This document shows positions 21,156 to 45,180 of a DNA stretch of 64,000 nucleotides, piece after piece. The position numbers and the translations under genes were made by a program. The stretch's first letter is position 1, and every line of letters starts with the position of its first letter. The notes under the pieces were generated by a model. The model saw nothing but the letters and a program-made list of their open reading frames with translations. It had not been told where the DNA came from and ran no database searches. This stretch comes from Alcanivorax sp. REN37 (lineage in GTDB: Bacteria; Pseudomonadota; Gammaproteobacteria; Pseudomonadales; Alcanivoracaceae): the NCBI RefSeq assembly GCF_041102775.1, contig NZ_JBGCUO010000001.1, positions 682,001-746,000 on the forward strand. The letters are read 5' to 3'.

Positions 21156-21216
21156 GGTCCACCTCGTCACAAAGCTGCGGAGGGCGTAGGGGCTGACGGG
21201 CAAGTGCTGAGTGGGC

Positions 21217-21963: not shown

Positions 21964-22029
21964 GGTTGGCTCCTGTTGGCGAAGGTCGCAAAGCGGGTCG
22001 GTGCACTGGGCCCGACCCGCTCACGGGCT

Positions 22030-25682: not shown

Positions 25683-26248
25683 GCACGACGCTGCCGTGGC
25701 GGGTGCTGGATCGCGACAGCGCTGGCTGGCCTTGCTTGTCACTTTTGGTGACACCCAGTCAGGCTGGCACTTCCACACAGAAATTGAACCCGCCAGTCAC
25801 ATTCTGTGCGAGCGTACAAGTGTGACGCCGTTCAAAACCGAACTAAAATCGCCTGCGACAAAGGTTGTCAAAAAATATAAGAAATAAAATAGAAGGTTGC
25901 CGAACAACGTCTGCATTTTTACTAATTCGTAATCGCCTGAAACAGTCTATTGCTCAGTATCTGATGTCACAGTCTGTGCCGTTTTTTAGCGCATAAAAGA
26001 TGAAATAGACGAAATCCAGCCTTTCACCACGTTCTGTTCAATACCCCCAACCCCCCTCCTAACCTAGTTCTACGAGGCTGCGTGCTGGCGTCGTGCATCT
26101 GAAAAGCCGTGCTCCGCAACGGCGGACCATCGAAAGCCAACCTGGTCAGGCGTCGTTCCGTGCGCCTGGCCGGTGCCGTGGTGGGGGCGGCTTTGCTGAC
26201 CTGTTGCCCATAGATAGGGCGCAACAAAATAAGAAAGGAGATCAAACC
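25683..26248 (+). other. AT-rich promoter region of the FadL-like operon
   Basis: A 566-base gap that drops sharply in GC between about 25850 and 26050, consistent with a regulated promoter for the porin operon. A small hairpin GTCAC-TTTTG-GTGAC (25737-25751) lies after the LysR gene without a T-run. The open frame from 26093 runs into the porin gene but lacks family similarity before 26249. Confidence 0.5.
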
Positions 26249-27541
26249 GTGAAACTAAAACCTCTCGCGTGGGCCATGACCTGGGGGCTGGCAGCTGTGC
26301 TGGCACAGCCCGCCGTCGCGTCGCTCGGCAATGCGCCCTCCAGCTATGGCTTGCTGCCCAGCGATGTCGGCTCGGCCCAGTCGCTGTCTATTTTCAACGA
26401 CCGCATCTCCGCGGTGTATTACAACCCCGCCAACTTGGTGCGTGATCGCCGCGGCGAACTCACCGGCGGCGTGTTCCATGCCGACCACGACCTGAAAACC
26501 AACGGCGACCGCATCATGAACACGCCGTCGCAGCAGCTGCAGCTGGGTCTCAAAACCGACCTGTCGAACCTGTCCACCCTCGATCACCCGCTGTACTTCG
26601 GCATGATGGTGGGCGTGGAAAAGTTCGCCAAAGAAATGATGGCGTTCAGCTCTAGCACCAGTAATTCGCCGCAGTATCTGACCTACGGCCGCCAGCCGCT
26701 GTTCCTGACCGCCGGCGTCGGCACCAGCGTGTGGCGCGGTATTGATGTGGGCTTCTCACTGCGCGTCACCCTGCACGCCAGCGCGACCCTGAACACCGAC
26801 ACCACCTTGGCCGGCCACACCTCTAACGAAGAGCTGGATGTGTCCGCCAAGCCGGTATTCCGCCCCATCGTCGGCCTTAATATCCGCTGGGGTGAAACCT
26901 TCTGCGGCAAGTCCGATTGCTGGATGGATAACCTCGAAACCGCCATCGCCTACCGCGCCTATTCCAATGCGCGCACCAAGGTGAATTCCAACGTGTCGGT
27001 GCCGGGCGTTATCGTGCCGCCGGGCCTGAATCTGGCCATCCAAACCTTCGATTCGTTCCAGCCGGAAATCACCACCCTCGGCGTCAAATACGACTTCGGC
27101 CAATTCCGCCTCGGCGTCACTGGTGAGTACCAAGCTTGGGGTCGCCTGCAGCGCGAGCTGCGCGACGACACCATCAAAGACCAGGCCCACGCCAACTTCC
27201 GCGACATCGTCATTCCCCGCGTCGGTGTGGAGTTTGATCTGGGCGATCACCTGACCTTCACCGCCGGCGTGGCCCACGAGCGCAGCCCGCTGGAAAGCAA
27301 GCGCACCGTTGGCGTGAACTACGTCGATGCCGACAAAACCGTATTTGGCCTCGGCCTCACCGCCGTGATTCCGAAGATGCCGATGCTGGCCTACCCCGTC
27401 CGCATGGACCTCGGCTACCAGCACCAGCGCATCGACAAGCGCACCTTTGAAGTGGTCGACGGCAATGGGCTCTATCTGGGCGACGCCAAAACCGAAGGCA
27501 GCGTCAACGTGTTCTCCACGTCCGTAACGCTGCGGTTCTGA
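26249..27541 (+). CDS. FadL/OmpP1-like outer membrane transport protein
   Basis: A 430-residue beta-barrel starting at GTG, eight bases after AAAGGAG. The signal peptide ends AQPAVA. The N-terminal NPANL motif in DRISAVYYNPANLVRDRRG matches the NPA signature of FadL hatch domains, and the last strand ends VTLRF. FadL relatives move long-chain fatty acids or other hydrophobic molecules across the outer membrane. It is followed after 22 bases by a giant lipoprotein and probably works with it. Confidence 0.78.
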   Translation: MKLKPLAWAMTWGLAAVLAQPAVASLGNAPSSYGLLPSDVGSAQSLSIFNDRISAVYYNPANLVRDRRGELTGGVFHADHDLKTNGDRIMNTPSQQLQLGLKTDLSNLSTLDHPLYFGMMVGVEKFAKEMMAFSSSTSNSPQYLTYGRQPLFLTAGVGTSVWRGIDVGFSLRVTLHASATLNTDTTLAGHTSNEELDVSAKPVFRPIVGLNIRWGETFCGKSDCWMDNLETAIAYRAYSNARTKVNSNVSVPGVIVPPGLNLAIQTFDSFQPEITTLGVKYDFGQFRLGVTGEYQAWGRLQRELRDDTIKDQAHANFRDIVIPRVGVEFDLGDHLTFTAGVAHERSPLESKRTVGVNYVDADKTVFGLGLTAVIPKMPMLAYPVRMDLGYQHQRIDKRTFEVVDGNGLYLGDAKTEGSVNVFSTSVTLRF

Positions 27542-27563: not shown

Positions 27564-30500
27564 ATGAAACGCCTGTTATTGGCCGCCTGCATTGTCAGCC
27601 TGACCGCCTGTGGCGGCGGCAAAGACGATGTCAAAAGCGGCTACGAAGATAAAATACGCGCATCCGGGCAGAGCCTGGTGTACTCCTTCCCGCTGGCCGA
27701 CCAAGTGGAAGTGCCCACGCCGTCGCCGGTGGTGCTGCGCTTCACCAGCGCCGTAACCGACCCCGCCACCGCCAACGTGCGTTTGCTGGATGCCAATGGC
27801 CAGCCGGTGGCCGCATCAATGACCAGCGTCGACGGCGACCGGGGGTTGATCCTGACGCCGGATACCCCGCTAAACCCGCTGGCTCACTACACTATTGATA
27901 TTCCCGAGCTGGCGCTGGCCGACGGCAAGTCTGCCGCCCGCAGCCTGCACTTCACCACCCGCGGCCTGCACCAAGGCCCGGCGGCCAGCGTCGGGGCCGA
28001 CACCTTTGACGTACTGCGTCGCTTCCCCGATGGCCAAACCTTGCCGGTGGCAGATCTTTCCAGCCTGCGCCTGCAACTGAGCCAGCCGCTGGACCGCAAC
28101 ACCGTCAAATACGGTGACGCTGCCGACAGCACCATCTCCTTGGTGGACGCCAACGGCCAGTTGGTGCCGGCACGGGTGCTGGTGGGCGACAGCTACCTCA
28201 CCATTGACCCCGTTAACGACATGGTCGGCGGCGCCCAGTACACCCTTAAAATCGCCACCGGCAGCACCGGCCTTAAGAGCAGCCGCGGCCTAACCCTGCC
28301 GGCCACCGGCATGGGCGCCAACGCTTGGAGCTGGAGCTTCACCCCGGAAGACACCCGTCCGCCGGCCAGCACCAAGAACCCCAACCGTGATCGCGCACGC
28401 ATGGTGCAGATCATCGACGACACGCCCATGGACAGCCCGCTGACCGGCAAGCGCGTCAACCTGGTGCCCATGTATTCGGTACTGCTGGGTACCGAAGGCT
28501 CCGCTAATCCGGCCACGCCACAAGCGTCCGGCTACTTGGCAGCCGAGCTGGCCCACATCCCCGAGCACGACGAAACCACGCCGCTGCGTATCGACCGTGG
28601 TTCGCTGATCAAAGCCAGCAGCCTGCCGATTTACATTGGCGGCGAAGTGCCGGCCGGGTTTAGCTCTGGGGAGGTGTACATGGAGTTCCTGTCAGACGCC
28701 ACCGGCTACCTGATCGAGAACCCCTACAGCACCAACCCAGAAGCGCCGAAGCTGGTGCGGCTGATGATGGACATGGGCATTTCCGCCGAAGGCGATATTG
28801 CCAACGGCAGCGTCACCCAAACCCTGCTGCACATCGAGCTGGTCGGCACCGCCCTGGTGGAAGACGGCCTGATGACGCTGAACGCCGTGGGCGTGGTGCA
28901 GCCGAACATCCTCGGCACCGAGCGTGCCACCGCCGTGCTGAGCTTCTATATGCAGGGGCTGGATGACCAAGTGAATGCGCCGGTGCCGCCGGTGGATAAC
29001 AGCGCAATGTCACTGGTGAGCATGACCATTGGCTGGGACGATGCGACCCAACTGGACAAAACACCGTTCCTGAAAGCTAACGAACCCATCATCCTGAACT
29101 TCAGCCGCACCATCGACCCAGACAGCATTGATGGCACTGTGAGCTTGGTGAAACAAGAAAACGGTAGTGAGATTCCCGTGCCGGTTACGGTATACGCCGA
29201 CGGTGCCGCATTAGTCATTAAACCGGAGTCACTGCTGGAAAGCCCCACGGAAACCGGAACCCCCTTCAACTACCGCCTGCGTGTACAGGGCGATATTCGT
29301 GGCACCCTGGGCAATGAGTGGGCCGGGGTGGTAGATGAGGTGATTAATTTTAAGGAGTTGGTTAATAAACGCCAAGGATACAAGCTAGGCTTCTTTGGTT
29401 TGCAGCCAAACGGAAATCCAGTAGATGTCCAAAAAAAGTCAGTATATATTTTGGGGATTTATCCCGGATTTCCATGTGCTCTTAATACTGATTCGAGGAA
29501 TCTTCAGCCCGCTCCTGGACAGCAGATGGTCGCTGGTAGGTGCTTAGGAGGAATGCAGCCGCATGCAAATGACGATTTAGGAGCTTTGGCTCCTCTAGAG
29601 GCAGATGACTTGCTTCCAGTGCCTGAGATGCCGTCTAACAGACCTATCGTAGTGGTTTTTTCTAAACAGATTGATGAAGCAAGTTTGTTCGATACGAATG
29701 GAGCCGCTAAGACCTTTTCAGTGTATGAAGTGGACCCAGTCCAACCTGATGTAATGGATGAGCGTGTCGATGGGACCGTCGAGTTGCATGGAGATACACT
29801 GAAATTTTACCCTAATACGCCGTGGTTGGAAGGTAAGCTATACGCATACAAGTTAAGTTCTAATGGTGGTGTCTCCACCCAGACAACCAACTGTGATGCT
29901 AATCAAGCCGGGGCAAGTTTGTGCGACTTAGACGGATTGCCGCTGGCGACGCAGATGCTGGCAGAGGTGTCTACCCATTATAAGAGCAACTTTCAGAATA
30001 ACCTTCCTTCTGTATTTAATGACTATTTCATTTGGGAGGAGAGTGCGCCCTCCTACACTAGTGGTGGTCCGGACTTGATTCAATACTTTAGAGGAGGTGC
30101 GGCTAGTAAGAATGTTTTGCAGCTGCTGAGGCTTTCCAATGTGGTGGATAAAAATAAAAATTTAATGAACGACAGCTCGCCAACCATTATGAGTGGGCTG
30201 GGAGGGGGGGTGTCTTATAATACGGCAATTCTCTACGACTATGCGATGAGCGAGAACTCGGAAGTAGTCTGGGAAAGCGACAGTAGTACATCAGGTCTTA
30301 TGGACTCAGCCTACGGCGATACGGCTATCGATCCTAATGGGCTAAAGCCTCCTGCTAATAGTGCTAAAATTCTCTCCACATTTTATGGGTGGCGCGATCT
30401 TGATGACTTTTCCAATCCCCTCCTTGTAACAACAGGAAGTGGCGGTGCGACAGCTGGGGCAAATGTTGGCTGTGGTTTTGATAGTTATCCAGATTTCTCA

Positions 30501-31133
30501 GTTCAGAGTGGTCCGAACGGAAATTGTGCCGTTGCGGGAGTAGGTGATGGCTTTCCTCTTAAGTGTAGCTGGGCCGTGCCGTCAGAGTGTCCCAAAGATA
30601 AGTTTACATATCTTAGTGGAGCGCTCTTTGCGGAAGTCACTACTGATCTAGCGCCCGATGGATCGCTAAAAGTATTGATACACCCTGGGCACATAGTTAC
30701 CACTTCATTCCAGACCTTCACCAAGGTCCCGACGGCAGGTAGGCACAATATTATAGACTCGGGGTTTCAAGTGATGAGAATGAGGTATGGCAATGATATG
30801 AGTCCTATACCTGCATTCATAAGTGAAAGCCCGTTGGGGCCTGTTCTTAAGACGCGGGTAAACTTGTATCTGGACGCGCCTTGGTTGAAGACGGATGTTG
30901 TAAATAATAAGAAGCTGTTAGCGGTAATGCATCACAATTTTTATAGTTATAAGGTGACGATGGAGTTGTCAGGTGGTGTACAATTTCTAAATGATGGGCG
31001 GATGGTTATTGAGCAGAGAAATGATAATGACATTGCCTTTTCTCTAATGGCAAATGCTCCGCGCACTTTGGTGGAGCTAATGGTGCCGAAGGGAGGCACT
31101 TTTATTCAGTATATATCGGAGTCCATAAAGTAG
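27564..31133 (+). CDS. large lipoprotein with Ig-like (SbsA-type) domains, compositionally chimeric
   Basis: An 1189-residue lipoprotein (lipobox LTAC, Cys16). Several Ig-like modules are suggested by repeated segments such as PSPVVLRFTSAVTDPATANVRLLDANGQPV, LRLQLSQPLDRNTV and PIILNFSRTIDPDSIDGTVSLVKQENGS. Such proteins pair with the FadL-like porin directly upstream. The first ~590 codons have the GC-rich codon use of the host; from about base 29340 to the end the gene becomes AT-rich with different codon choice while the frame stays open. This suggests a recombinational replacement of the 3' half. The ligand is unknown. Confidence 0.75.
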   Translation: MKRLLLAACIVSLTACGGGKDDVKSGYEDKIRASGQSLVYSFPLADQVEVPTPSPVVLRFTSAVTDPATANVRLLDANGQPVAASMTSVDGDRGLILTPDTPLNPLAHYTIDIPELALADGKSAARSLHFTTRGLHQGPAASVGADTFDVLRRFPDGQTLPVADLSSLRLQLSQPLDRNTVKYGDAADSTISLVDANGQLVPARVLVGDSYLTIDPVNDMVGGAQYTLKIATGSTGLKSSRGLTLPATGMGANAWSWSFTPEDTRPPASTKNPNRDRARMVQIIDDTPMDSPLTGKRVNLVPMYSVLLGTEGSANPATPQASGYLAAELAHIPEHDETTPLRIDRGSLIKASSLPIYIGGEVPAGFSSGEVYMEFLSDATGYLIENPYSTNPEAPKLVRLMMDMGISAEGDIANGSVTQTLLHIELVGTALVEDGLMTLNAVGVVQPNILGTERATAVLSFYMQGLDDQVNAPVPPVDNSAMSLVSMTIGWDDATQLDKTPFLKANEPIILNFSRTIDPDSIDGTVSLVKQENGSEIPVPVTVYADGAALVIKPESLLESPTETGTPFNYRLRVQGDIRGTLGNEWAGVVDEVINFKELVNKRQGYKLGFFGLQPNGNPVDVQKKSVYILGIYPGFPCALNTDSRNLQPAPGQQMVAGRCLGGMQPHANDDLGALAPLEADDLLPVPEMPSNRPIVVVFSKQIDEASLFDTNGAAKTFSVYEVDPVQPDVMDERVDGTVELHGDTLKFYPNTPWLEGKLYAYKLSSNGGVSTQTTNCDANQAGASLCDLDGLPLATQMLAEVSTHYKSNFQNNLPSVFNDYFIWEESAPSYTSGGPDLIQYFRGGAASKNVLQLLRLSNVVDKNKNLMNDSSPTIMSGLGGGVSYNTAILYDYAMSENSEVVWESDSSTSGLMDSAYGDTAIDPNGLKPPANSAKILSTFYGWRDLDDFSNPLLVTTGSGGATAGANVGCGFDSYPDFSVQSGPNGNCAVAGVGDGFPLKCSWAVPSECPKDKFTYLSGALFAEVTTDLAPDGSLKVLIHPGHIVTTSFQTFTKVPTAGRHNIIDSGFQVMRMRYGNDMSPIPAFISESPLGPVLKTRVNLYLDAPWLKTDVVNNKKLLAVMHHNFYSYKVTMELSGGVQFLNDGRMVIEQRNDNDIAFSLMANAPRTLVELMVPKGGTFIQYISESIK

Positions 31134-31212: not shown

Positions 31213-31986
31213 CTATGGGTACTGGCGATATAAAGTTTCTCCGTGTTTACTGAGGATTCTTATTTCTGCTCTGCCCATTTCTTTATAGGACTCTAGTGCG
31301 AGCAGGTCGTTTGTTGTCTCCCCCAAAAGATATCCGTTTACAGATATTATTATGTCTCCCGGCTCTGCTCCCCATTCTTTCAAAATCTTTGGATAAAATC
31401 GGCTCCCTATTACGTACCCTGATGGGGCATCACTTTGTACTGGTGTCAAATCATGCATTTTTATGAGCGTTTCTCGAGGGGTTTCATGCTGTGATGTTTG
31501 GAGATTTACTGATGGGGGTTCTAGTGGCTCTAAATGTGGTGCGTCTAGGCTGTCTAAGCGTGCCGTGAGCAAGCATCCCGAGCTGAAAATTATAACTTCT
31601 CTAACGCCGATTTTTTTGACTCTGCCCATAGCTAGTATAGTATCGCCCTCCTTAAATCTTAATGTTCCTATATTTGCGAGGTTGATAGCGGCGGATGAGG
31701 ATTTGGAAGCGTTGTCGTGGAATATGGCTGTCACAGTATAGTTTGACGAATCTCTGCTGATGGGGCTGGCGTCCAGGTCGCAGTCGGAGTCATGAAGAGT
31801 GGAGTGATGAGCTGCGACTTCGTTAGATGAAGCAGAGTCGATAGAGATTTCAGCCTTCTTCTGCTGAGGTGAAATTGAGTGAGGCGCAGGTGAGGGAGGA
31901 GCTGAGGGGACTAGCGCGATATAGGCCACTCCCAATGCTACTGTGGCCAGTACTGAAGTGTAAGCTGCCCTGATTAGCGCGATCAT
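31213..31986 (-). CDS. stand-alone GspC-like protein with PDZ domain
   Basis: A 257-residue bitopic protein with one N-terminal membrane helix (AYTSVLATVALGVAYIALV) and a Pro/Ser-rich linker. A homology-region domain follows (YTVTAIFHDNASKSSSAAINLANIGTLRFKEGDTILAMGRVKKIG...IIFSSGCLLTARL), then a C-terminal PDZ-type fold (GYVIGSRFYPKILKEWGAEPGDIIISVNGYLL). This is the layout of type II secretion GspC. No other gsp gene is in the window, and the gene is AT-rich, pointing to an acquired or relocated copy. It may be an adaptor for an alternative substrate. Confidence 0.6.
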   Translation of the reverse strand: MIALIRAAYTSVLATVALGVAYIALVPSAPPSPAPHSISPQQKKAEISIDSASSNEVAAHHSTLHDSDCDLDASPISRDSSNYTVTAIFHDNASKSSSAAINLANIGTLRFKEGDTILAMGRVKKIGVREVIIFSSGCLLTARLDSLDAPHLEPLEPPSVNLQTSQHETPRETLIKMHDLTPVQSDAPSGYVIGSRFYPKILKEWGAEPGDIIISVNGYLLGETTNDLLALESYKEMGRAEIRILSKHGETLYRQYP

Positions 31987-32056: not shown

Positions 32057-32617
32057 TTAGAGGTGTTCGCCGCACGCAATCCGAGAAAGGGCACCGGTGA
32101 ATGTTACTGACCCACCGAAGTTGCCGCTAATTCCGCCGGGGTTGACGTCTACGACTTTCGGCAAAGTGATCGTTTTTCCATCGCAGGCGAAGTTGTCTCC
32201 TGCAGCTGGACTGCCGAATAGCTCCACGACTCCACCCGCGATAGGAGAGATCCCGCTGGGCGTAAAGAGCAGAACGGAGTACGGCATGCTAGTGCCGGTA
32301 TTAATGTTCCCAGTACCACTATTGATGCCACTCAGAGTGCTAGTCCAAGGGAACCCGCCCAAGAAAAGCGCTGCACACGTGCTATCGCCCGGGTTTGCGC
32401 CAGCAGCAGTTATTTCAACGACATTGCCATCGCAGTCAGCCTTCACCGACATGTTGAGCCAGCAGTTCACCGCTGATCCACCAAGGTCTAGAGAGGTCTC
32501 GCCTTTGTATACACATGCTACATACGGCGGAGCCATAGCACTCGCAGTAGACGCTACCCCAGCCAAGGCCACTGCTGCAGCCACCCCAGTCAAACCCGTC
32601 AGAAGTTTCTTTTTCAT
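32057..32617 (-). CDS. secreted protein, possibly PraB-like (alkane oxidation activator family)
   Basis: A 186-residue exported protein with a clear signal peptide (MKKKLLTGLTGVAAAVALAGVASTASA). The mature part is small-residue and Gly/Ser/Thr rich with five Cys; VNCWLNMSVKADCDGNVVEITAAGANPGDSTCAALFLGGFPWTS is the most distinctive stretch. The pattern of N-terminal Cys, a TCxxL...PW block and a Gly-rich beta C-terminus recalls PraB-type secreted proteins that aid growth on alkanes. The match is from memory of the family pattern and is uncertain. The ribosome site GGAGCAACACC is good. Confidence 0.5.
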   Translation of the reverse strand: MKKKLLTGLTGVAAAVALAGVASTASAMAPPYVACVYKGETSLDLGGSAVNCWLNMSVKADCDGNVVEITAAGANPGDSTCAALFLGGFPWTSTLSGINSGTGNINTGTSMPYSVLLFTPSGISPIAGGVVELFGSPAAGDNFACDGKTITLPKVVDVNPGGISGNFGGSVTFTGALSRIACGEHL

Positions 32618-33143
32618 GGTGTTGCTCCTTTCCCATCATGGGAGTTGAAGAACATTTTTTTGAGAGTCAAAGAGCGTTTCGAGCTTCTCTCTGAAGTCGT
32701 GCCACGCTCTCATCGTCGATGCCGACACCTTCCTGGCCTCGACCCTGTCCGGCTTCACTGCCCCAAGCGCCGGACACATTCAGGCTACCCAGCTTGGCGA
32801 CCGGCCAACAAGCGATCTGCTCCCGTAAAACCCGACGATGTTTTTTGAACCTGCCACTACAATCGCTTACGTTGTAGCGACGTCGTTTCGATGTAAGAAA
32901 AAAACTATTGAGCGGTCGACAGGAAATCCTGCTTTTCTCAAAGTTCATGCCGACTTCCCGAAAAAATGTGCCATGATCGAGGACATATATTTATGGTGAT
33001 CAATGTGTTTCAGCCCGTCGTCGCAAACGTCTGGCTCGTATTGCAGCAGTTCGCAGGTGGGGCGGCGAGTAGCCGATGGGAATGATAAGTCAGTCACTTT
33101 TTTACGGCAGAAAAGGCGCCTGTTACCAACCGAAACACTGTAA

Positions 33144-33157
33144 TTGATCTGCATCAA
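33144..33157. promoter_or_regulatory. FNR/Anr-type binding site
   Basis: TTGAT-CTGC-ATCAA is an exact dyad of the FNR/Anr/Dnr consensus. Its position about 105 bases upstream of the RAYT-like start, on the proper side of an AT-rich leader, would allow oxygen- or NO-responsive control. Binding is inferred from the consensus alone. Confidence 0.6.
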
Positions 33158-33221
33158 TTTATGGCTGCAGGACGCAGCCTGAAAATAAAAATAAAGACAC
33201 GACACCTCAAGAGGAGAGCGA

Positions 33222-33241
33222 GACCTGTCCGGGGGCAGGTC
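33222..33241 (+). promoter_or_regulatory. small hairpin just upstream of the RAYT-like start
   Basis: Arms GACCTG and CAGGTC enclose a G-rich eight-base loop (TCCGGGGG), 20 bases before the ATG at 33262. It could be a REP-like hairpin recognised by the RAYT protein itself or a translational control element. Confidence 0.4.
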
Positions 33242-33261
33242 CAGACGAAATGGAGAGCACC

Positions 33262-33852
33262 ATGCCAAGGGAACGACGGCAATTTTCAGCGAGCTATAGC
33301 CACTACATCCACAATGTCAGCCGCCCACACCGGCAGCTGTTCGAAGAAGATATCGACTACCGCGCCTTTCTGCGCACCCTCGGCACCCTGCGCCAGGAAT
33401 ACCGCATCGACCTTTGCGGCTGGTGCTTGCTGCCCACCGAAATGCACCTGGTCATCCAGCTGCCCGATCCCGCGGAACTCAGCGTCATCATGAAGCGCTT
33501 GAGCACCCTTTATACCGGCTACGTCAACCGCAAACGCCGCCAAACCGGCAGCCTCTGGCACGGCCGCTACCGATACCAAAACCTCGACACACCGCTAGAG
33601 CACCTCTACCGCATCGCCGCCATCGAATCCCTCCCGACGCGCCGCGGCCACACCCACGGCCCCCACCAATACATCTGGAGCAGCTACCGCGAACGCACCA
33701 ACCTAGTCATCGGCAAAGCCCTCTGCCGCGACGACGCCTTCTCCGCCATGGCCCCCAGCGCCGAAGAACGCAGAGAACTGTGGCGAAATATGGTGGCGGG
33801 CACGTTGTCGGTGGAGGAGAGGGAGAGGATGGCGGCGAGGGTGGGGCGTTAG
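33262..33852 (+). CDS. REP-associated tyrosine transposase (RAYT)-like protein lacking catalytic residues
   Basis: A 196-residue Y1-transposase-fold protein. The framework is clear: MPRERRQF at the start, CGWCLLPTEMHLVIQL, IMKRLSTLYTGYVNRKRRQTGSLWHGRYRYQNL and QYIWSSYRERT. In active relatives the metal-binding motif is HUH (NHxHLL) and the nucleophile is the Tyr in YIxLNPVRA. Here the first position is E60-M61-H62, and the nucleophile region reads AAIESLPTR with Ala120 in place of Tyr. The protein is therefore probably unable to cut DNA and may have been kept as a DNA/RNA-binding protein. A longer start at 33250 is possible. Confidence 0.72.
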   Translation: MPRERRQFSASYSHYIHNVSRPHRQLFEEDIDYRAFLRTLGTLRQEYRIDLCGWCLLPTEMHLVIQLPDPAELSVIMKRLSTLYTGYVNRKRRQTGSLWHGRYRYQNLDTPLEHLYRIAAIESLPTRRGHTHGPHQYIWSSYRERTNLVIGKALCRDDAFSAMAPSAEERRELWRNMVAGTLSVEERERMAARVGR

Positions 33853-36100: not shown

Positions 36101-37299
36101 ATGGCGAAGATCAAGCTCACTAAGTCCGCAGTCGATGCGGCACACCCCAAGACAAGGCCGTCGAACTACGGGATACCGTGGTTCCTGGCTTCCTGTGCAA
36201 GATCACCCCGGCGGGCCGCAAGGTGTTCATGCTCCAGTACCGCACGAACGCCGGCGAGCGCCGCAAGCCCGCCTTGGGTCAGTACCGGGAACTGACGGTC
36301 GATCAGGCACGCACGATGGCGCAGGAGTGGCTGGCCGAGGTGCGCAAGGGGGGCGACCCCAGCGCAGCTAAGAATGCCGCCCGCAAGGCACCGACCATGA
36401 AGGAGCTCTGCCACACCTTCATGGAGGATTACTCGAAGCAGCGCAACAAGCTCAGCACGCAGCGTGGCTATCAGGGCGTGATTGACCGTTGCATCATCCC
36501 GATCATGGGCCGGATGAATGTGCAGGATGTGAAGCGCCCGGACGTGGCGGCGCTGATGAAGAAGCTGGCCTACAAGCAGGCTGAGGCCAACCGCACCTTT
36601 GGCGTGCTGCGCAAGATGTTCAGCCTGGCCGAAGTGTGGGGGCTGCGCCCGGACGGTGCGAATCCGTGCCGTCACGTCCCGATGTACCCGCCCGGCAAGG
36701 AAACCCGGCTCATCGTGGACGATGAGCTGGTGCGGATCTTCCGCCACTTGGAACACTTGGAGGCGGAAGGATTGGAGAACTACGTCATCCCGCTGGCGAT
36801 CCGCCTGCAATTCGAGTTTGCCGCCCGCCGCTCCGAAATCTGCCCACTGGAATGGGGCTGGGTTGATCTGGAAAACCGCCGCGTCGTCTGGCCCGACAGC
36901 AAGACCGGCGGTATCTCCAAGCCCATGAGCGAGGAAGCCTATCGGCTGCTGTCCACAGCGCCGCGCCGGGGCGGCTGCCCCTACGTCCTGCCGTCGCCGA
37001 ACGACCCGACCCGGCACATGACCCACGGCGAGCACTACGGCGGTTGGACGCGCGTGCTCAAGGCCACTGGTGTACCGCACGTCGGCACGCATGGCATCCG
37101 CCACCGAGCGACCACCGATATTGCGAATTCTGGCGTGCCGACCAAGGTGGGCATGAAGCTCACAGGCCACAAGACCGTGGCGATGTTCACGCACTATGTT
37201 CATACCGAGGACAAGCCGGTGCGCGATGCGGCGGAACTGGTGGCGAATCGGCGGCTGGCGATCACCGGGGCATCCCGCTCTATAGAGGTGACAGCATGA
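36101..37299 (+). pseudogene. P4/ICE-type tyrosine recombinase (integrase), N-terminally frameshifted
   Basis: The original start ATGGCGAAGATCAAGCTCAC (36101) begins MAKIKLTKSAVDAAHPK, the usual start of ICE integrases. One base appears to be missing near 36150, after which the frame shifts; the remaining 373 codons are open from GTG 36178 (MVPGFLCKITPAGRKVFMLQYRT). The catalytic domain is intact: Arg in FAARRSEICPLEW, HGIRHRAT, GHKTVAMFTHYVH with the Tyr nucleophile. Activity would need initiation at 36178 and would lack part of the arm-binding domain. Its stop overlaps the yhcG start (ATGA). Confidence 0.8.
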
Positions 37300-38462
37300 C
37301 AAGGAAGACGCCCGTGGCAACGCGGAAACCTGCTGCCTTACCTGCCGGCTATGCCGGCATCCACGGCGGCATCGTGGAGTTGCTGGATGCTGCACGCCAG
37401 GCAGCAGCGCGCAGTGTCAATGCGCTGATGACGGCCAGCTATTGGGAGATTGGCCGCCGGATCGTCGAAGCCGAGCAGAAAGGCAGGCGGCGGGCCGGTT
37501 ACGGCGAGCAGTTGATGGAACGGTTGTCCGCCGATCTGACGGCCCGATTCGGGCGCGGGTTCAGTCCGGACAACCTGGAGAACATGCGGCGCTTCTTCGT
37601 CGCTTACCCCCTTGAGGCAATTTCCGAGACACTGTCTCGGAAATCTGAAGACGGACTGCTCATCGAGAATTCCGAGACAGTGTCTCGGAAATTCGACCTC
37701 GCCGAACTGGCACAGGTCTTCACCCTGCCGTGGTCGGCCTATGTCCGGCTGCTGTCTGTCAAGGATGACCATGCTCGTCAGTTCTACGAGGCAGAGGCAC
37801 TGCGCGGCGGCTGGAGCGTGCGCCAACTCGACCGGCAGATTGGTAGCCAGTTCTACGAACGCACGGCCTTGTCCAAAGACAAGGCGGCGATGCTGGTCAA
37901 GGGTTCAGTGGCCAAGCCCGAGGATGCAGTCACGCCCAATGACGCGATCAAAGACCCGTATGTGCTGGAGTTCCTCGACCTCAAGGACGAGTATTCGGAA
38001 TCCGACCTGGAGGCGACATTGATCCAGCGTCTGGAAGACTTCCTGCTGGAGCTGGGAGAAGGCTTCACCTTCGTCGGGCGGCAGCGGCGCTTGCGCATCG
38101 ACCAGACCTGGTATCGGGTGGATCTGCTGTTCTTCCATCGCAAGCTACGCTGCCTGGTCATCATTGACTTGAAGCTGGGCAGCCTGACCCATGCCGATGT
38201 GGGGCAGATGCACATGTACTGCAACTATGCCAAGGAGCATTGGGCCTACCCGGATGAGAACCCGCCGGTGGGTCTGATCCTGTGCGCTGACAAGGGCCAT
38301 GCCCTGGCGCGTTATGCACTGGATGGCTTGCCGACCAAGGTAATGGCGGCGAACTACCGCACCGTACTGCCAGATGCAGAATTGCTGCAAAAAGAGCTGG
38401 ACAACACGCGGCGTCTGCTCGAATCTCGTGGAACGCTGTCTCTCAAGGACGATAAGCCATAG
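37296..38462 (+). CDS. YhcG/DUF1016 PD-(D/E)XK nuclease-family protein
   Basis: A 388-residue protein. The N-terminal DUF1016_N helical domain (SVNALMTASYWEIGRRIVEAEQKGRRRAGYGEQLMERLSADL) is followed by LPWSAYVRLLSVKDDHARQFYEAEALRGGWSVRQLDRQI. The C-terminal nuclease domain has VDLLFFHRKLRCLVIIDLKLG (Asp and Asp-Leu-Lys of the PD-(D/E)XK core), THADVGQMHMYCNYAKEH and PVGLILCADKG. Such proteins are frequent in defence and mobile-element contexts. Two palindromic insert-like repeats lie in the middle (SETLSRKS and SETVSRKF). It is translationally coupled to the integrase. Confidence 0.85.
   Translation: MTRKTPVATRKPAALPAGYAGIHGGIVELLDAARQAAARSVNALMTASYWEIGRRIVEAEQKGRRRAGYGEQLMERLSADLTARFGRGFSPDNLENMRRFFVAYPLEAISETLSRKSEDGLLIENSETVSRKFDLAELAQVFTLPWSAYVRLLSVKDDHARQFYEAEALRGGWSVRQLDRQIGSQFYERTALSKDKAAMLVKGSVAKPEDAVTPNDAIKDPYVLEFLDLKDEYSESDLEATLIQRLEDFLLELGEGFTFVGRQRRLRIDQTWYRVDLLFFHRKLRCLVIIDLKLGSLTHADVGQMHMYCNYAKEHWAYPDENPPVGLILCADKGHALARYALDGLPTKVMAANYRTVLPDAELLQKELDNTRRLLESRGTLSLKDDKP
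37620..37690. repeat. two near-identical palindromes inside yhcG
   Basis: The first palindrome (37620-37644) has twelve-base arms ending TTCCGAGACA / TGTCTCGGAA with one central base. The second (37670-37690) has the same ten-base arms with a different central base. Centres are 48 bases apart, exactly 16 codons, so the protein repeats SET(L/V)SRK. They look like an in-frame duplicated palindromic element tolerated in a linker. Confidence 0.75.
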
Positions 38463-38636
38463 TCGTTCGTCCCGGCGTACCGCCGTCGGGCTCGCGGGCT
38501 GCGCCCCGTGCTTCCTGCCGAATCACAGCCATTCGGTGCTGATCCCTGACGCCTTCGGCCTGGATCGTTGATCCGGGCCTACGCGTGCTGCGCACTTGCC
38601 AACGGTGGGTGTGTGGCTGAGTGGGGTGTAGGCGGT

Positions 38637-38933
38637 CTTGCTGCTCCCTTCCATGGCACCATCGACAGAGCATCGGTGTATCCGCGCGAGGTGGGCAAGG
38701 AGGCGCTGCGACTCAATACGGCGGCGGTGATCCTCTCGCACAACCATCCGAGCATGAATCCTGAGCCGTCGCAGGCCGATAAGGGATTGACACAGCGGCT
38801 AAAGGAAGCGCTGGGGCTGGTGGAGGTGCGCACGCTGAGTCACACCATTGTGGCTGGTGCCGAAAAAGTGTCGTTTGCCGAGCGTGGGTTATTGTCAGTT
38901 TTGGGGGCTTCGGTCCATTTTCCGATTGCTTGA
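38637..38933 (+). pseudogene. radC, 3' fragment (JAB-domain, DUF2466)
   Basis: From about 38637 the frame reads [84 protein letters not shown]. This is the C-terminal half of the RadC proteins carried by ICEs, with the JAB metal motif HNHPS (the usual following Gly is Met). The N-terminal half is missing; the preceding ~170 bases are ICE-type intergenic DNA. It is a truncated remnant. Confidence 0.78.
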
Positions 38934-39029
38934 AGCGAAGGCTGCTTCCGACCCAAAAAGGTCAGTAAGTTATCTGCTCGAAGACAGTTATCAACGTTCT
39001 ACTCCTGAATAAACAAGGTAATCCACCGG

Positions 39030-39180
39030 CTAAGCCGGCAGATTGGCATTAATGCCATGGGCCTGCGCGATCGCCGCTACCGAGACATGCGGCTGCTTAC
39101 ATTGTGCGACCAATGCCGCCTTGTATTCGTCCGTGTACCGACGCCGACGCCGGCGGCCTGGGCTTTCTTCTGGCATTAAG
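39030..39180 (-). mobile_element. IS66-family tnpA fragment (5' end only)
   Basis: The minus-strand frame reads MPEESPGRRRRRRYTDEYKAALVAQCKQPHVSVAAIAQAHGINANLPA. This is the N-terminal DNA-binding helix-turn-helix of the IS66 accessory protein TnpA, cut off where the normal protein continues NLLRRW. The remainder of the element is absent. Confidence 0.7.
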
Positions 39181-39221
39181 AGCATACGTGTCCACCTATT
39201 TACGTAGGCACGTATGCTCTT
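39178..39221. repeat. 13-bp perfect inverted repeat with nested stem
   Basis: Arms AAGAGCATACGTG and CACGTATGCTCTT flank an 18-base centre that itself contains CCTA/TAGG. It lies at the 5' edge of the IS66 fragment. It could be a transposon end junction, a recombination site or a regulator palindrome. Confidence 0.6.
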
Positions 39222-39580
39222 CGATTCTTGCCGCCTACTCAAGGTGACTTTGCCGGACGGTTACCGTCGAGCGCTAGTCCCCGCTGAAGGCGTTCCTGCT
39301 CGGCCTCCGCATATTGCGGTACGGCCGCTCCAACGGTTTCGCGTACAGCGGCTTTAGCCAGAGTCACAGGTCCGCCCCAAGGTGCTGACTATCTGCGTTG
39401 CGCGTTGATTGACGAGGCGCGCCAGTATGGCGCTTTTCGCAGTCACGCTATTTGCCGGCCCCGGCGGGATTTCGTCAGCTCCAACCGCACCACGAGTTGA
39501 TCGAACTTCGCCTGCGTCAACATTTCCCCAAGAAATTCGATTGCGGCGACGATAGTGGGACGGGGTAAATGGATGGGATT
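39222..39580. other. scrambled mobile-element DNA
   Basis: About 360 bases between the IS66 fragment and the defence island, without an intact gene. A minus-strand piece reading EFLGEMLTQAKFDQLVVRLELTKSRRGRQIA (about 39475-39550) looks like coding remnant of unknown origin, ending in a stop. Confidence 0.4.
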
Positions 39581-40447
39581 TCATTCTTGTCCGGCTCCAT
39601 CTACTTGCGGTGGTTTTACGACATCAAACCCCCCATCGCAAAAACCATTGTGTGCTGCGAGTGCGCGATACAGAATGACTCTCCAGAAGTTGGGCCCATG
39701 CGCTGCCTCGTAGTCATCCGCCTCTGCCTCCAATTCAGCAGCTACACGGGCCGAACCGCCGCCATTTTGGTAAAAGCGAACAAAGCCACCGTGCCGTCCA
39801 CGCAGTTCGACAAGTGAGAGTTTCCGGTAGCGACTTGCTAGATCGAGCTGTTTGAAGTGGGAGCGCAGTTGGAGGTATCGGGCTTGGCTCATCCCCACTG
39901 GCCGGCGAACACGAAACTCCAAAAGCAGTGCATCTTGGCGGAGTCTGACGCGAACAGTCAGGAATGTTTGGTTAGGAATATCGTCAAAATATGGGTGAAG
40001 GAACAATCGGACATCGGTGTCTTCATCGACAATCAACGTACGCTTCCGTGTGTTACATTTTGCGCAGCTTGGAACCAAATTCAAAGAAAAAATTGAGAAC
40101 TCTGGATATAGCTCTTTGGGGAGATAATGATCCAGGGTGCCTGACTCACTGATTCCACAGAATGGGCAACGTGCGGCCATCACGGGCTCGTTGAGCTTCT
40201 CCCGTAGATCCAGCATGGGGGCTGTTTCTACGGAGTATGCGTGATGTAAGGCCTTACGCTGTACGTTTGTTACGGTGGCAGGAACTAGCGACTCAACAGA
40301 GGGAGCGGCATTTTCATACATTCCATATGCGACAACGACACGTCTTCTGGCTGCCTCCAGTCGGCGGCGTGTAGGTTGTCGTTTTGCGGCAGTGATGTTA
40401 TCAAATACGTCTTCGCTGTCCATGTCAGGAGGAGTAATGGAGTGCAT
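39581..40447 (-). CDS. ptuB: HNH endonuclease, PtuB-like (Septu-type defence)
   Basis: A 288-residue protein with a zinc-supported HNH nuclease core. C94-x2-C97 (RCPFCG), the catalytic D106-H107 (GTLDHYLPK), N123 (FSLNLVP) and C128-x2-C131-N132 (SCAKCNTRKR) are all present. The C-terminal ~150 residues are helical and probably contact the ATPase. It starts four bases after the stop of an AAA ATPase on the same strand; ATPase plus HNH is the composition of Septu (PtuA-PtuB) and of the effector pair of some retrons. No reverse transcriptase is nearby. Nuclease action on phage DNA is inferred from family knowledge. Confidence 0.75.
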   Translation of the reverse strand: MHSITPPDMDSEDVFDNITAAKRQPTRRRLEAARRRVVVAYGMYENAAPSVESLVPATVTNVQRKALHHAYSVETAPMLDLREKLNEPVMAARCPFCGISESGTLDHYLPKELYPEFSIFSLNLVPSCAKCNTRKRTLIVDEDTDVRLFLHPYFDDIPNQTFLTVRVRLRQDALLLEFRVRRPVGMSQARYLQLRSHFKQLDLASRYRKLSLVELRGRHGGFVRFYQNGGGSARVAAELEAEADDYEAAHGPNFWRVILYRALAAHNGFCDGGFDVVKPPQVDGAGQE

Positions 40448-40451
40448 GCTT

Positions 40452-42002
40452 TCACAAATCCTCTTTCATGAAGTTTGCCATGTACGATCGCGCCCCGAAT
40501 CCTAGGCGGCGGCCGAACATATCTTCAATCTCTTCGAAATTATGTGATCTGGCTAGGGATTGAAGCGTGTCGTGCCAGTCCGTTGATCCATCATCGAGAT
40601 TGAAAACTTCTTCGGTGATAACGCTGATATTTTCTCCAAAGGTTTCGATTGATGGCGTAACGACCTTTGAGAGTTCACCAATACGCTTCAGTACGAGGAC
40701 GTACTTTGATGGGGTCTCCTGAAGTACGACGGGAGAGTGCGTCGAAATGATGGCATAGCCATCGAAATGGTCGAGACATATACGTATGCTTTTAAGGACA
40801 GTTGCAAGTAACGGAGGGTGCAGATGGGTCTCTGGCTCGTCGATGAGCACTAGCGTTGGATGTGCGTCGTCGAGGTGTGCAGTCAATTCGGTCATCATCT
40901 TGGTGACAATTTTATGGCCGCTACTGAGTCCATGATAAAGATCAAGAAGTGACTCTTCGTTTTTGTCAGCGTATAGAGTGGTCAGACCGATTCGCTGAAA
41001 TGAGGCATCTTGGAGTAGAGGTTTCAATACATCGAGCAATATACTCATACGATCAGAGCTTCGTATTCTCTCTAGCGCGCTGAGAAATTCCTGATCTACC
41101 TCTTCCAAATTTTTAAGCCGATAAGCCTCATCGTCATTTACATCTATTCGTTCGCGCAAGCCGCAGTAGACATAGCCAAAGATTCCACCTTCATTCTCAA
41201 GGCGCCTTTTTTCTATGTTGGTTTTTCCTGGAATTGCGAATGTGTCGAATGCACTGTATGAGACAACTACTACAGACTTGAAAGGTGGTTGAGTTCCGAC
41301 GAAACGGCCCGCGCGCTTCTCTAAGAAGTCCCTTTTCTCGCCATAGCCGTAACCGCTGGCTACTGTCGCTAGATTTGCCAGCATACGTGTCTTTCCGGTT
41401 CCGTTATAACCAATGAGGACGTTGATTCTGTTGGGAAGCGGGCCTTTTCTTCGAAAATCAAAATCAACAATCAAAGAAGTGGCCTGACGTGCAACTTGAG
41501 TCTTGAATCGCATGACAAAGCCACGCCCTCTGCGACGAATAGTTGGGGTTTTACGCATAAATAGACGACTGGCGTCTACGATGGTCCGTTCTGCACCGCT
41601 GAAGCGGAGCAGCGAAACTTTGAATCCCTCATGATCTTCAAACTGAGCCCGGACACTATCGCTGTATGCCACGTCCTGTAGCCCTTCCAAATATCCTTCG
41701 TAGACAGCCACTCCTAGCTTGAAGAGCTTCTCGTAATACTCTAGGTCGGCACCGAGGGAGCAAAATTTCTCGCCTAATACTCGAAATGCTTTTCGCGGGA
41801 CTGGCGTTAGGCCATGAGTTTGATCCTCCTTGAGGATCTTCACGCTACCGAGTTCGACTTCATCGTCTGGTGATAAATGAATGGTGGCGTGAAAGGTCGT
41901 CTTATAGGAGTAGTCGTCCCAATTATCTTGAACCAAAACGGTGTGTGGATATTTGTTAGTGGAGGGTGATTTGCCCTCTCGAAATTTTACGACGAACCAC
42001 AT
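40452..42002 (-). CDS. ptuA: AAA/ABC-type ATPase, PtuA-like (Septu-type defence)
   Basis: A 516-residue ATPase. A ~165-residue N-terminal region without recognised motifs precedes the P-loop GYNGTGKT (198-205), followed by an ABC-type signature LSSGHK, Walker B LVLIDEPETHLHPP and the switch region IISTHSPVVLQETP. It resembles OLD/RecF-like ATPases without a TOPRIM domain. It is directly upstream of the HNH gene (four-base gap), so the two form one defence operon. In characterised Septu the ATPase holds the nuclease in check until infection. The gene is less GC-rich than the chromosome. Confidence 0.75.
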   Translation of the reverse strand: MWFVVKFREGKSPSTNKYPHTVLVQDNWDDYSYKTTFHATIHLSPDDEVELGSVKILKEDQTHGLTPVPRKAFRVLGEKFCSLGADLEYYEKLFKLGVAVYEGYLEGLQDVAYSDSVRAQFEDHEGFKVSLLRFSGAERTIVDASRLFMRKTPTIRRRGRGFVMRFKTQVARQATSLIVDFDFRRKGPLPNRINVLIGYNGTGKTRMLANLATVASGYGYGEKRDFLEKRAGRFVGTQPPFKSVVVVSYSAFDTFAIPGKTNIEKRRLENEGGIFGYVYCGLRERIDVNDDEAYRLKNLEEVDQEFLSALERIRSSDRMSILLDVLKPLLQDASFQRIGLTTLYADKNEESLLDLYHGLSSGHKIVTKMMTELTAHLDDAHPTLVLIDEPETHLHPPLLATVLKSIRICLDHFDGYAIISTHSPVVLQETPSKYVLVLKRIGELSKVVTPSIETFGENISVITEEVFNLDDGSTDWHDTLQSLARSHNFEEIEDMFGRRLGFGARSYMANFMKEDL

Positions 42003-42066
42003 GATTTACCTCTATTCCAAAGATTGTTGATACTCGCGCGCGGAGTTTATCTGTTAACTCTGATGA

Positions 42067-42103
42067 TAAAACTGACCCCGGACGCCGAAGTAAATCTGAC
42101 CCC
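42067..42103. repeat. paired IS-end-like repeats between two defence modules
   Basis: Two 13-base copies, TAAAACTGACCCC at 42067 and TAAATCTGACCCC at 42091, are spaced 24 bases apart. On the other strand they read GGGGTCAG(A/T)TTTA, which resembles the multiple terminal repeats of IS21-type elements. They lie exactly in the junction between the helicase stop and the PtuA-like start region, suggesting that an insertion sequence helped assemble the island. Confidence 0.45.
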
Positions 42104-42121
42104 CTCGGGCAATTCGGTGCT

Positions 42122-43384
42122 TTATGCGAACGGAGGTCGGTTCATATGGGCGGATGCCTGCACAAGAACAACACATCGTTCCTTCGCACGCGTCACTGCG
42201 TTATAGAGCAAACGCCTCTTCTGGTCGTCACTACCAGCAACCGCCGCTGGCCACAGAACAATCACGTTGTCGAACTCTCGGTTCTTCGCGCCATGAACTG
42301 TCATCCCTTTCCATCCACGCACCTCGTTTCTGCGAGATTGGCGGCGCTGGGAAAAGGACTGCTCAATCGACTTCACGACCTCATCCTTTGAGAACTCCAG
42401 CTTCGCCCGGGTCCGACGTTGAGTCTCTAGCCATTCGAACACATCCCTGGTTGTTCTGGCGTCACCAACTGCCGCGAGGACGGCAATGATGGAGGGAGCG
42501 TCGGTCCAGTCCGCAAGTTTGATCGCGGCGAGGTACTCGCTTGCGGCTTTAGCCTCTGACTGCTCCCATGCGACTTCATACGGGCCTGCACCTTTCTTGG
42601 TTTTGTTGGCAGCAGCCCAGGCCAAAGCGCCTTTGGCAAACGTTCCAAGGGTTGGGGTGATAATGGCGACGCTCTTACCTCCGCCATACCAGCTCAAATT
42701 GGAGTTGATCCAGGCACCAGCCAAGGGCGCAGTGGAGGTCTGCGCAACGACGAAGAACTTCCCCGACTTAGGCGCCTCGCCGGCGCGAATTGCTCTGGCT
42801 GCATTGAGTAGCTCGTCAACGTTTGTCCGACGAGGCTGTAAAAGCTCCTCAGGGGCGCATATTTGGGCCAGCCAAGCGCACGCAGGGTTGGGGCGTAGCT
42901 CCTCGCTCAGACACTGAAACTCGTCCGCAGCAACAAAGACCTCCAACCTGTTGGCCAGGCCTGCCACCATGCCTAGGCGGTGCGCTGTCATGTCCTGGGC
43001 TTCGTCCAGGACAAGGACAGGAAACGTCGAAGCCACCCAGCCTTGGACATCTCTGACCTGTGCGAGTGCACTGGCGGCCTCGCATATGCGCTCGTACTCA
43101 CTCGGTTGGATGTTCACAAAACCGAGGGCTGAAGCGAGCGAACGCCAACGTCGGAACAGACGCCATGCGAAGCTGTCGATGGTCGTGCATTCTGTCTTGG
43201 CGCTCAGGTTCTGAAGCATCCCAAGGCGCTCTTCCAAGCGCCTGCGAGATCCATGCATGAAGGTGAGAGCCAGGACTTTCTGCCCGCTTTGGAGAGGAGC
43301 GCCTTCCAGATGCGCTGACAGCGATGCCATGAGCATGTGGGTCTTTCCACAACCAGCACCGCCGGTGAACGCGCGAACCGTCAT
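42122..43384 (-). CDS. gajB: UvrD-like superfamily 1 helicase, GajB-like (Gabija-type defence)
   Basis: A 420-residue SF1 helicase. Motif I is GGAGCGKTHML, motif Ia TFMHGSRRRLEERL, motif II LVLDEAQD, motif III region VFVAADEFQCL, motif V GMTVHGAKNREFDNVIVLWP and motif VI LYNAVTRAKERCVVLVQ. The start at 43384 forms an ATGA overlap with the upstream OLD-type nuclease gene. It is shorter than typical GajB (about 490 residues), with a reduced 2A/2B region. In Gabija the helicase senses nucleotide depletion or DNA ends and joins a GajA complex; here this is inferred from pairing. Confidence 0.78.
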   Translation of the reverse strand: MTVRAFTGGAGCGKTHMLMASLSAHLEGAPLQSGQKVLALTFMHGSRRRLEERLGMLQNLSAKTECTTIDSFAWRLFRRWRSLASALGFVNIQPSEYERICEAASALAQVRDVQGWVASTFPVLVLDEAQDMTAHRLGMVAGLANRLEVFVAADEFQCLSEELRPNPACAWLAQICAPEELLQPRRTNVDELLNAARAIRAGEAPKSGKFFVVAQTSTAPLAGAWINSNLSWYGGGKSVAIITPTLGTFAKGALAWAAANKTKKGAGPYEVAWEQSEAKAASEYLAAIKLADWTDAPSIIAVLAAVGDARTTRDVFEWLETQRRTRAKLEFSKDEVVKSIEQSFSQRRQSRRNEVRGWKGMTVHGAKNREFDNVIVLWPAAVAGSDDQKRRLLYNAVTRAKERCVVLVQASAHMNRPPFA

Positions 43385-45180
43385 GGATGAAACACCCACA
43401 CACCATGGTCTCCGCGAACAAAGCGCTGCGTAGCGTCATCGCCGGCACAGGCACAGGCCAGACCGCTTAAGAGATCTGCGGCCCGCTCCCTGCATGCTGG
43501 CGTCGTAGAAATGGCTTCCGCGAGACTTTCATAGGCGATGACGTCCATCTTCTTTGTCTTCAAATAGGCCACGACATCCGCGCTCGAATTTGGAGGCTGA
43601 GGGGATATCTCCGCGAGCTTGGCAACTACTGCGTCCTCATCCGCATTGAGAATCCACCCGATGACATCTTCGATCATTGCGCCATCGTTCCAGCGGATGA
43701 TCGAGCTGGGCGGCTCGGCCTCCAGCCGCAGTTGATCTGCGTATTCCAGACCTGCGGCATCACCATCGACGAGACAGCACACACGTTTGTGGATGCGCCT
43801 CATCAGCCTGTGGGTCTCGATGACATTTGCGTCTTCCGTTGGAACCACGCCGACTTCGATGCCGAAGGGGCGAGTCATTGTTTCGACCCAGCCTTCAGTC
43901 ATCGTCAACGGCCGGAGGATGCAACGCATCAACTGGAAATCGGCACGGCCTTCTGGAACGAGGAGTGCCGGCTGCATCAGCGCACTCAGTACGTCAATTC
44001 TGCTGTGCTGGAAGAACTTGCGCTTCCAGTTTGGCGTCGCGGCAGTAAGTGGGCTCGCTAGGAACGGTTCGGCTGAAAGTACGCCATCATGCTTCTTCAA
44101 GATCAGCACAGAGGTCGGATCGGCCATGCTGGCAACAAGAGGTGAATGGGTCGTGACGAATGTCTGAGTGGAGAGAGCTTGAACCCTCTGAACCAACCGT
44201 TGCTGCGCAGATGGCGGTAGATGGACTTCGGGCTCCTCCAATGCCATCAGGAATTCACCACCGCTTGCAGCACGAGCACGACCGAGCTCGAGCAGTAGTA
44301 GCAGACCCTGCATGGAAACCAGCCCGCTGCCCTGTCTGCCTGCAGGAATACTGAAGCCATCAGTGCCTGCAAAGTGGGCTGAAACTGCTTCCATCACAGA
44401 CCGACTGTCTGTGTTAGTAAGCCTCAACTGAACTTTTGGAGCATTTGGGAATGAGAGCGCAAGCTCGGTATTCAGGTTCTGAATCAGCGGTTGAATGCCC
44501 GGGTCGGCGTCGATAGGTTGCGCCGGTTCTCGCAGACGGTCCCGCTCGGCCAGCAACGCAGCTGCGGGCTGAGCCGCAGCTGCAAGCACTGTGCGTTTGA
44601 AGAGCTCGTTCCCCCACGAGAAGACTTTGTCCCACGTCCGGCTCGCACGTACCAGATAGAAGCTCAGTTCTTGAATGAGCTTGCCTGGAACGGGGGCCGG
44701 AGCCTCATCAGCAAACGGATCTATAGGTTCATCGTGGTCATAAAAGTAGCGCACAGTCTCCACGGCTAGGGTGTCATGGTCGAAGCGTGCTTGAACCCCG
44801 AGCTGACAGCATAGTTTCCATTCCGGGTTGTTCCGCACGGGATGCACTTGGCCTGACGTCTCGTCAAGCCATTTCACTACTGCTCTTTCATCACGAAACC
44901 ATTGGCTACTCTGTTCTGGGTCGTCGCCGGTAAAACCTGTGACCGTTGCTACGACTTTGATCCTATCGGCTGCTTGTGGATTGGACCCGAAGAAGTCATG
45001 CTCGCTCAGCTCGCGAATAAGACGATCCCTGCCAAGCACGAGAGTCAAAGCTTCGATCAGGGTAGTCTTGCCTGAGTTATTGTCTCCGACAAGAACGGGA
45101 TGTTTTCCAAACTGAAGAAACCCGCTTCTTACACCCCTAAAGTTCTCGATCCTCAAGTTGGCTATTCGCATCTTCATCAT
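43381..45180 (-). CDS. gajA: OLD-family ATPase-TOPRIM nuclease, GajA-like (Gabija-type defence)
   Basis: A 599-residue class 2 OLD protein. The ABC-type ATPase head has Walker A GDNNSGKTT (about 32-40), the signature region RQGSGLVSMQGLLLLL, Walker B FLMALEEPEVHLPPSAQ and the THSPLVASM switch. The C-terminal TOPRIM nuclease shows the metal Glu in LLVPEGRADFQLM and the DxD in CCLVDGDAAGLEYA. Three in-frame ATGs occur at the start; the one at 45171 has the best-placed ribosome site (AAGGA). It overlaps the helicase gene by four bases, the hallmark of GajA-GajB operons. It would nick or degrade phage DNA. Confidence 0.82.
   Translation of the reverse strand: MMKMRIANLRIENFRGVRSGFLQFGKHPVLVGDNNSGKTTLIEALTLVLGRDRLIRELSEHDFFGSNPQAADRIKVVATVTGFTGDDPEQSSQWFRDERAVVKWLDETSGQVHPVRNNPEWKLCCQLGVQARFDHDTLAVETVRYFYDHDEPIDPFADEAPAPVPGKLIQELSFYLVRASRTWDKVFSWGNELFKRTVLAAAAQPAAALLAERDRLREPAQPIDADPGIQPLIQNLNTELALSFPNAPKVQLRLTNTDSRSVMEAVSAHFAGTDGFSIPAGRQGSGLVSMQGLLLLLELGRARAASGGEFLMALEEPEVHLPPSAQQRLVQRVQALSTQTFVTTHSPLVASMADPTSVLILKKHDGVLSAEPFLASPLTAATPNWKRKFFQHSRIDVLSALMQPALLVPEGRADFQLMRCILRPLTMTEGWVETMTRPFGIEVGVVPTEDANVIETHRLMRRIHKRVCCLVDGDAAGLEYADQLRLEAEPPSSIIRWNDGAMIEDVIGWILNADEDAVVAKLAEISPQPPNSSADVVAYLKTKKMDVIAYESLAEAISTTPACRERAADLLSGLACACAGDDATQRFVRGDHGVWVFHP

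Follow-up and report, generated by a model that had tools for sequence, protein, structure and literature searches.

What could a transposase-like gene do for its host after losing the residues of catalysis? This question is raised by an ORF of Alcanivorax sp. REN37 in the window, i.e., the whole stretch of 64,000 nucleotides that was analysed. The ORF (33250-33852, forward strand) has 200 codons from its first ATG (33250) and 196 from an alternative ATG at 33262; a GGAG lies shortly 5′ of the latter, whose position agrees with the starts of relatives, upholding the good start claimed by the sequence-only reading. Based on the Y1_Tnp match, the fold, alignments, and GC content by codon position, we annotate 33262-33852 (+, 196 codons) as a gene for an HUH-dead RAYT/TnpAREP-like protein. 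The codons at 33439-33447 (+) put E60-M61-H62 in place of H-U-H, the codon at 33619-33621 (+) puts A120 where the nucleophilic Tyr aligns, and the Tyr+4 Asn column holds Leu (the same residues are E64/M65/H66 and A124 when numbered from the first ATG at 33250). Both motifs are lost, as the sequence-only reading had claimed: where a functional RAYT has HUH and Y---NP (Tyr, then Asn-Pro), the window gene has E-M-H and A---LP. The residue at Tyr+4 is known from work on IS608 to be a metal ligand.

The Y1 framework had also been described as well kept, and this is true of the fold. The predicted model is confident (pLDDT 91.6, pTM 0.85), has the Y1 transposase fold of functional RAYTs, and finds its best structural match in the PDB in 4er8, the complex of TnpAREP with a REP hairpin (E 2e-7; Z 16.8, 154 residues at 14% identity). 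It is less true of the sequence, which matches Pfam Y1_Tnp barely above the cut-off (24.9 bits vs. 23) and NCBIfam REP_Tyr_transpos far below it (41.4 vs. 80); a sequence search of the PDB with the window protein returned no match. Thg1 polymerases match the fold too (Z 8–9), which we read as a common arrangement only. The C-terminal domain past the core that characterizes subclass 2.1 is missing from the 196-aa protein, its usual tail being gone; a frameshifted tail was considered and rejected, with no RGRP-like tail in any frame past the stop. Flanking repeats as in functional RAYTs are likewise missing, with no AAAAGGGGACA near the gene at up to one mismatch, and a scan for promoters and terminators found none. 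The GC content at the three codon positions (0.61, 0.46, and 0.81 vs. 0.60, 0.44, and 0.82 in aupA) is native, and searches of the 3.02 Mb genome found no Y1 protein besides the gene product. With no second copy in the genome and a GC3 resembling that of aupA, a recent insertion was rejected.

The nearest relative of the window protein, from the sister genus g3, is 36% identical to it. Searches for close orthologues gave only one 20-residue match in genome contigs (Rahnella, L031), none among viral contigs, and at most 31.5% identity on plasmids. The bacterial family holds 64 RAYT-like places, of which, by alignment, 50 lack the first His and 14 are intact, one place (G033:C2:2531937) being left unread. 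HUH-dead members were found by searches and alignments in 13 of 13 genomes of g3 and in 4 of 7 of the window's own genus, g1; none was seen in the other 26 family genomes, whose matches, apart from that unread place, are of the NHYH type. The alignment, which retains near-copies, has 99 rows, 37 with HUH and 62 without it, and Asn occupies Tyr+4 in 35 of the 35 HUH rows with a letter there vs. 0 of the 62 dead rows. The sequence-only reading had raised the question of whether the Glu and Ala substitutions are conserved in the family, and they are not: in the 48 same-family rows without a full HUH, the position of the first His is taken by E, R, Q, A, G, or S, and most relatives retain the Tyr.

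In a first tree, from which fragmentary or frameshifted ORFs had been excluded beforehand, the window gene grouped with four long NHYH rows, themselves intact and on long branches, a placement that we judged to be long-branch attraction. A second tree was built from the 68 rows left after dropping these four and 27 near-duplicates, with the trait columns removed. Here 34 dead rows of the family, the window gene included, are split from all other rows by a branch (support 92/99, not starred) that was recovered in 91% of bootstrap trees, and a further dead group, of 10 rows, stands apart (support 100/99). The window gene has the longest branch, flagged as long in both trees, and it shares with its clade the loss of the first His and of the Tyr+4 Asn and a location beside aup genes. 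An RGxGRP-type tail occurs in most dead relatives and several intact ones and is absent from the window protein. One dead paralogue (L068 1375-2058) looks frameshifted.

The alkane-uptake neighbourhood is an addition of the present analysis, absent from the sequence-only reading. At 26243-27541 (+), the window encodes an AupA-like FadL-family outer-membrane protein (alkane uptake; NF041571, 503.6 bits, E 4e-151, under the equivalog cut-off of 840), and at 27564-31133 (+) a 1189-aa Ig-like (Big_5) protein, called AupB-like from its position beside aupA. A weakly GspC-like protein (31213-31986, −; 23.9 bits, cut-off 150) and a secreted, very weakly PraA/PraB-like protein (32057-32617, −; 22.4 bits, cut-off 150) follow, the latter encoded divergently from the RAYT gene. 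The order aupA-aupB-(GspC-like)-(pra-like)-RAYT is recurrent; in several g3 loci, RAYT lies upstream of the pra-like gene on the same strand, whereas the window has them in divergent orientation. Among the AupB-like matches listed, an AupB-like gene shares the contig with 40 of 50 dead genes and 3 of 14 intact ones, and lies within 10 kb of 37 of the 40 testable dead genes (as it does of the window gene) and of none of the 14 intact ones, the distances being upper bounds because they come from the best 50 AupB-like matches, and the counts of paralogues and orthologues not being independent, since the clusters duplicate and descend. Intact NHYH RAYT-like genes do occur inside two aup/pra clusters (L055 9101-10102 and L074 4981-6108), the intact RAYT gene of L064 has an aupA fragment at a distance of 1.2 kb, and in the subgroup L056/L065/L067 no aup gene was found in the stretch read. 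The intact proteins of L055 and L074 are 330–380 aa long and resemble subclass 2.3. Elsewhere in the window, positions 18552-22554 hold what reads from the sequences as a chaperone-usher fimbrial-like cluster (usher, chaperone, pilin), and positions 36178-48366 hold an integrase gene followed by defence-like genes, namely a DUF1016/YhcG nuclease, a PtuA/PDC-M01-like pair, GajA-like and GajB-like genes, and a clear LmuA-LmuB (Lamassu) pair.

Across nine groups of dead orthologues, pairwise dN/dS (NG86) ranges from 0.013 to 0.365 and is mostly below 0.2, compared with 0.121–0.148 in intact control groups; these orthologous sets of relatives are under purifying selection. Group D, in which both His are lost, gives 0.013–0.037, group A, in which Gly replaces Tyr, 0.084–0.141, and group F the highest values, 0.27–0.37, its frames being taken from stop to stop, so that upstream non-coding codons are included. 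Given the clade-wide loss of the metal site, the purifying selection, and the recurrent aup location, it is well supported that the family is catalytically dead and domesticated. The earlier proposal of a protein retained without chemistry thus stands at the family level; for the window copy itself, selection cannot be measured, because its nearest relative is so distant.

A second, independent clade of dead RAYT-like genes (L141-L149, L151, L152, and L160; families f16, f39, and f8) is located at type VI secretion system (T6SS) loci. Members of f16 have x-[VI]-Q at the HUH position and keep the Tyr, and at all loci whose flanks were read (7/7) the dead gene is the first of a T6SS operon. In f39, the dead gene has a PP2C gene on one side and an Hcp gene on the other (4/4 loci), and in the single f8 locus Hcp is downstream. 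A Pfam check on L143 and L148 only identified VipB, T6SS FHA, VasE/TssK, DotU, Hcp, VgrG-like, and PP2C. One unsaturated pair of this clade has a dN/dS of 0.015, and an intact NHVH paralogue in G331 (L150) has no neighbour in common with the T6SS-linked dead genes. A near-conserved TAATGTTAACTTG occurs before the RAYT start in f16 (L141-L145, L152, and L160), at about 60–110 bases in most, and a TTTGC/ATAAT promoter-like stretch also precedes the T6SS-linked f16 gene.

Upstream of the window gene, the exact FNR box reported by the sequence-only reading, TTGATCTGCATCAA, was confirmed at 33144-33157, 104 bases before ATG 33262; shuffles give 0.01 such sites expected per window. An Fnr protein is encoded in the genome (280.7 bits, cut-off 228), whose 3.02 Mb contain four exact sites, with none of a reversed control pattern, the other three lying just before fnr and near rlmKL and uvrC. 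An exact box together with an Fnr protein, as expected of an FNR regulon, is thus present in this genome. However, none of 38 other dead genes (33 of the same family and 5 of the T6SS clade) has a box with up to one mismatch in a 300-base window, which was shifted somewhat for the 11 genes whose assigned start lay off the start codon. The box is private to the window gene, and we rejected it as a family trait; redox control of the gene, as suggested earlier, is weakly supported. The box may place the window copy under oxygen control, although we give less than even odds to its being functional. The hairpin noted earlier at 33222-33241 (+), before the ribosome-binding site, does exist, with eight pairs, one of them G-U, but the stretches folded do not exceed shuffled sequences in stability (z −1.29 and 0.10; of 200 shuffles, 25 and 95 did as well), and a REP-like or hairpin target at 33222 was rejected on this account. 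A 6-bp hairpin, GGCTGC-AGGAC-GCAGCC, lies directly past the FNR box (33163-33179), and an imperfect 19-nt palindrome lies further upstream (32866-32897).

Candidate binding sites come from g3. An intact relative, L154, carries AAAAAGGGGACAGATTTATTTT at both gene ends, resembling the TIRYT repeats in the available part of PMC6006769. The core AAAAGGGGAC[AG] occurs at 155 sites in the 13 g3 genomes (reversed pattern, 51) and at 4 sites in the g1 genomes (reversed pattern, 15). Within 600 bp upstream of dead RAYTs are 36 of the 155 g3 sites, covering 22 of 46 such genes, and within 600 bp upstream of aupA are 16, in 13 of 43 copies (those listed or seen at contig edges), with 0.07 sites expected. 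All 16 point opposite to aupA from about 190–470 bp away, and their flanks differ between paralogous aupA promoters and are alike among orthologues. Examples upstream of paralogous aupA genes are found at G019:C1:294078, 2814964, 2869445, and 2891926. In other genera, 0 of 32 motif sites have one of the 77 aupA copies nearby. The window locus has no AAAAGGGGAC[AG] site, and its genome has only one; an element common to the pra-RAYT intergenic region and the upstream regions of aupA in this genome was also sought and rejected, only A+T-rich runs and words of chance length being shared.

Our preferred reading, to which we assign a probability of about 0.6, is that the window gene is a domesticated, non-catalytic RAYT/TnpAREP descendant of a clade kept beside aupAB and pra-like genes in one bacterial family, most likely regulating these neighbours. 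The residues lost and the genes alongside suggest recruitment for the binding of DNA or RNA, possibly in a regulatory role, and regulation of aup/pra genes by the dead clade is plausible. In such a mechanism, the Y1 domain would remain able to grip a structured strand or hairpin without being able to cut it, so that its effect, most likely on the regulation of neighbouring genes, would come from occupancy; in g3, AAAAGGGGAC[AG] upstream of dead genes and aupA would supply the candidate sites, and the motif pattern there fits an operator or a relic.

The same pattern might arise if aup loci merely gather Y1 transposases and their end repeats, with the dead proteins having a role unrelated to aup and pra. 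The resemblance of the motif to the ends of intact relatives, the two intact NHYH genes in aup clusters (L055 and L074), and the many motif sites at neither a dead RAYT nor aupA all speak for such a hotspot, whereas the low dN/dS of the dead genes and the single orientation and limited distance range of the aupA sites, despite differing paralogue flanks, speak against it, although shared descent could yield the same arrangement; we consider it somewhat unlikely. The presence of motif sites upstream of the dead genes would also suit a repressor of transposition, in which mobile relatives are silenced by dead proteins that sit on end repeats or associate with intact transposases. This is highly unlikely, as the window genome has one motif site and no other Y1 protein to silence.

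It is also conceivable that the family is domesticated but the window copy was recently released from selection and is decaying. Its very long branch, the lost Tyr and RGxGRP tail, and the missing close orthologue (36% identity at best) make relaxation possible, and of the 59 columns conserved at ≥0.7 the protein deviates in 24, among them Y124 and W117. On the other hand, it keeps 16 of the 24 columns conserved at ≥0.9 vs. 16 of 97 variable ones, its fold is confident, and the ORF is intact with native GC3. In neutral simulations of drift to 60, 50, and 38% identity, only 2.7, 1.3, and 1.7% of 300 runs each kept a stop-free ORF, so that most of the branch was probably under selection, though maybe not its last part; we consider decay of this copy unlikely. 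Least credible is that the protein is still an enzyme, using Y120, one helix turn before the Ala, as the nucleophile and E64 and H66 as metal holders (first-ATG numbering). These three residues are present, and several relatives have Glu in the first-His column, but R, A, G, S, and Q also occur there, the Tyr+4 Asn is Leu, and aligned relatives have no Tyr in the Y120 column.

Among known systems, the preferred reading of a domesticated, non-catalytic protein comes closest to TnpAREP/RAYT subclass 2.1 (Bertels group 1, TIRYT; Quentin et al., 2018, PMC6006769). As far as the available part of that source describes it, the Y1 fold and length range are alike, most dead relatives have an RGxGRP-type tail, and g3 has GGGGACA end repeats; unlike subclass 2.1, the window protein has no HUH, Tyr, Tyr+4 Asn, or tail. 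In the same portion of PMC6006769, RAYT proteins without HuH or Y are left out of the family-wide survey as probably non-functional. E. coli TnpAREP (4er8; PMC8266576, in the part available) is the best fold match, although at 14% identity, and the window protein lacks the catalytic residues and no REP array was found. The aupA-aupB adjacency is like that of the aupAB operon, multi-copy in Alcanivorax, in PMC5989066, whose available text describes no RAYT link and does not contain the word "transposase". Literature searches, over the portions of text accessible, found no description of aup-linked or T6SS-linked HUH-dead RAYT groups.

Two separate lineages have lost the metal site and the Tyr+4 Asn, yet their testable members keep low dN/dS and recurrent locations. 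The long-standing question of a host role of RAYTs can thus be tested, in alkane uptake and T6SS, with proteins that should not transpose. A parallel from the same type of element is TldR, which is nuclease-dead in origin. Like the dead RAYTs, the exapted TnpB-like, RNA-guided TldR regulators (as presented in the available part of PMC13418256) offer, by analogy, an IS200/IS605-type protein turned into a non-cutting factor located beside host genes; in contrast, dead RAYTs derive from TnpA rather than TnpB, and no guide RNA was seen. Speculatively, and with the balance leaning against it, they might form a dead TnpA regulatory branch parallel to TldR that arose at least twice and reuses transposon-end-like sequences or hairpins to control adjacent aup and T6SS operons, with the window gene as its extreme member, lacking nucleophile and tail and having an oxygen-responsive promoter.
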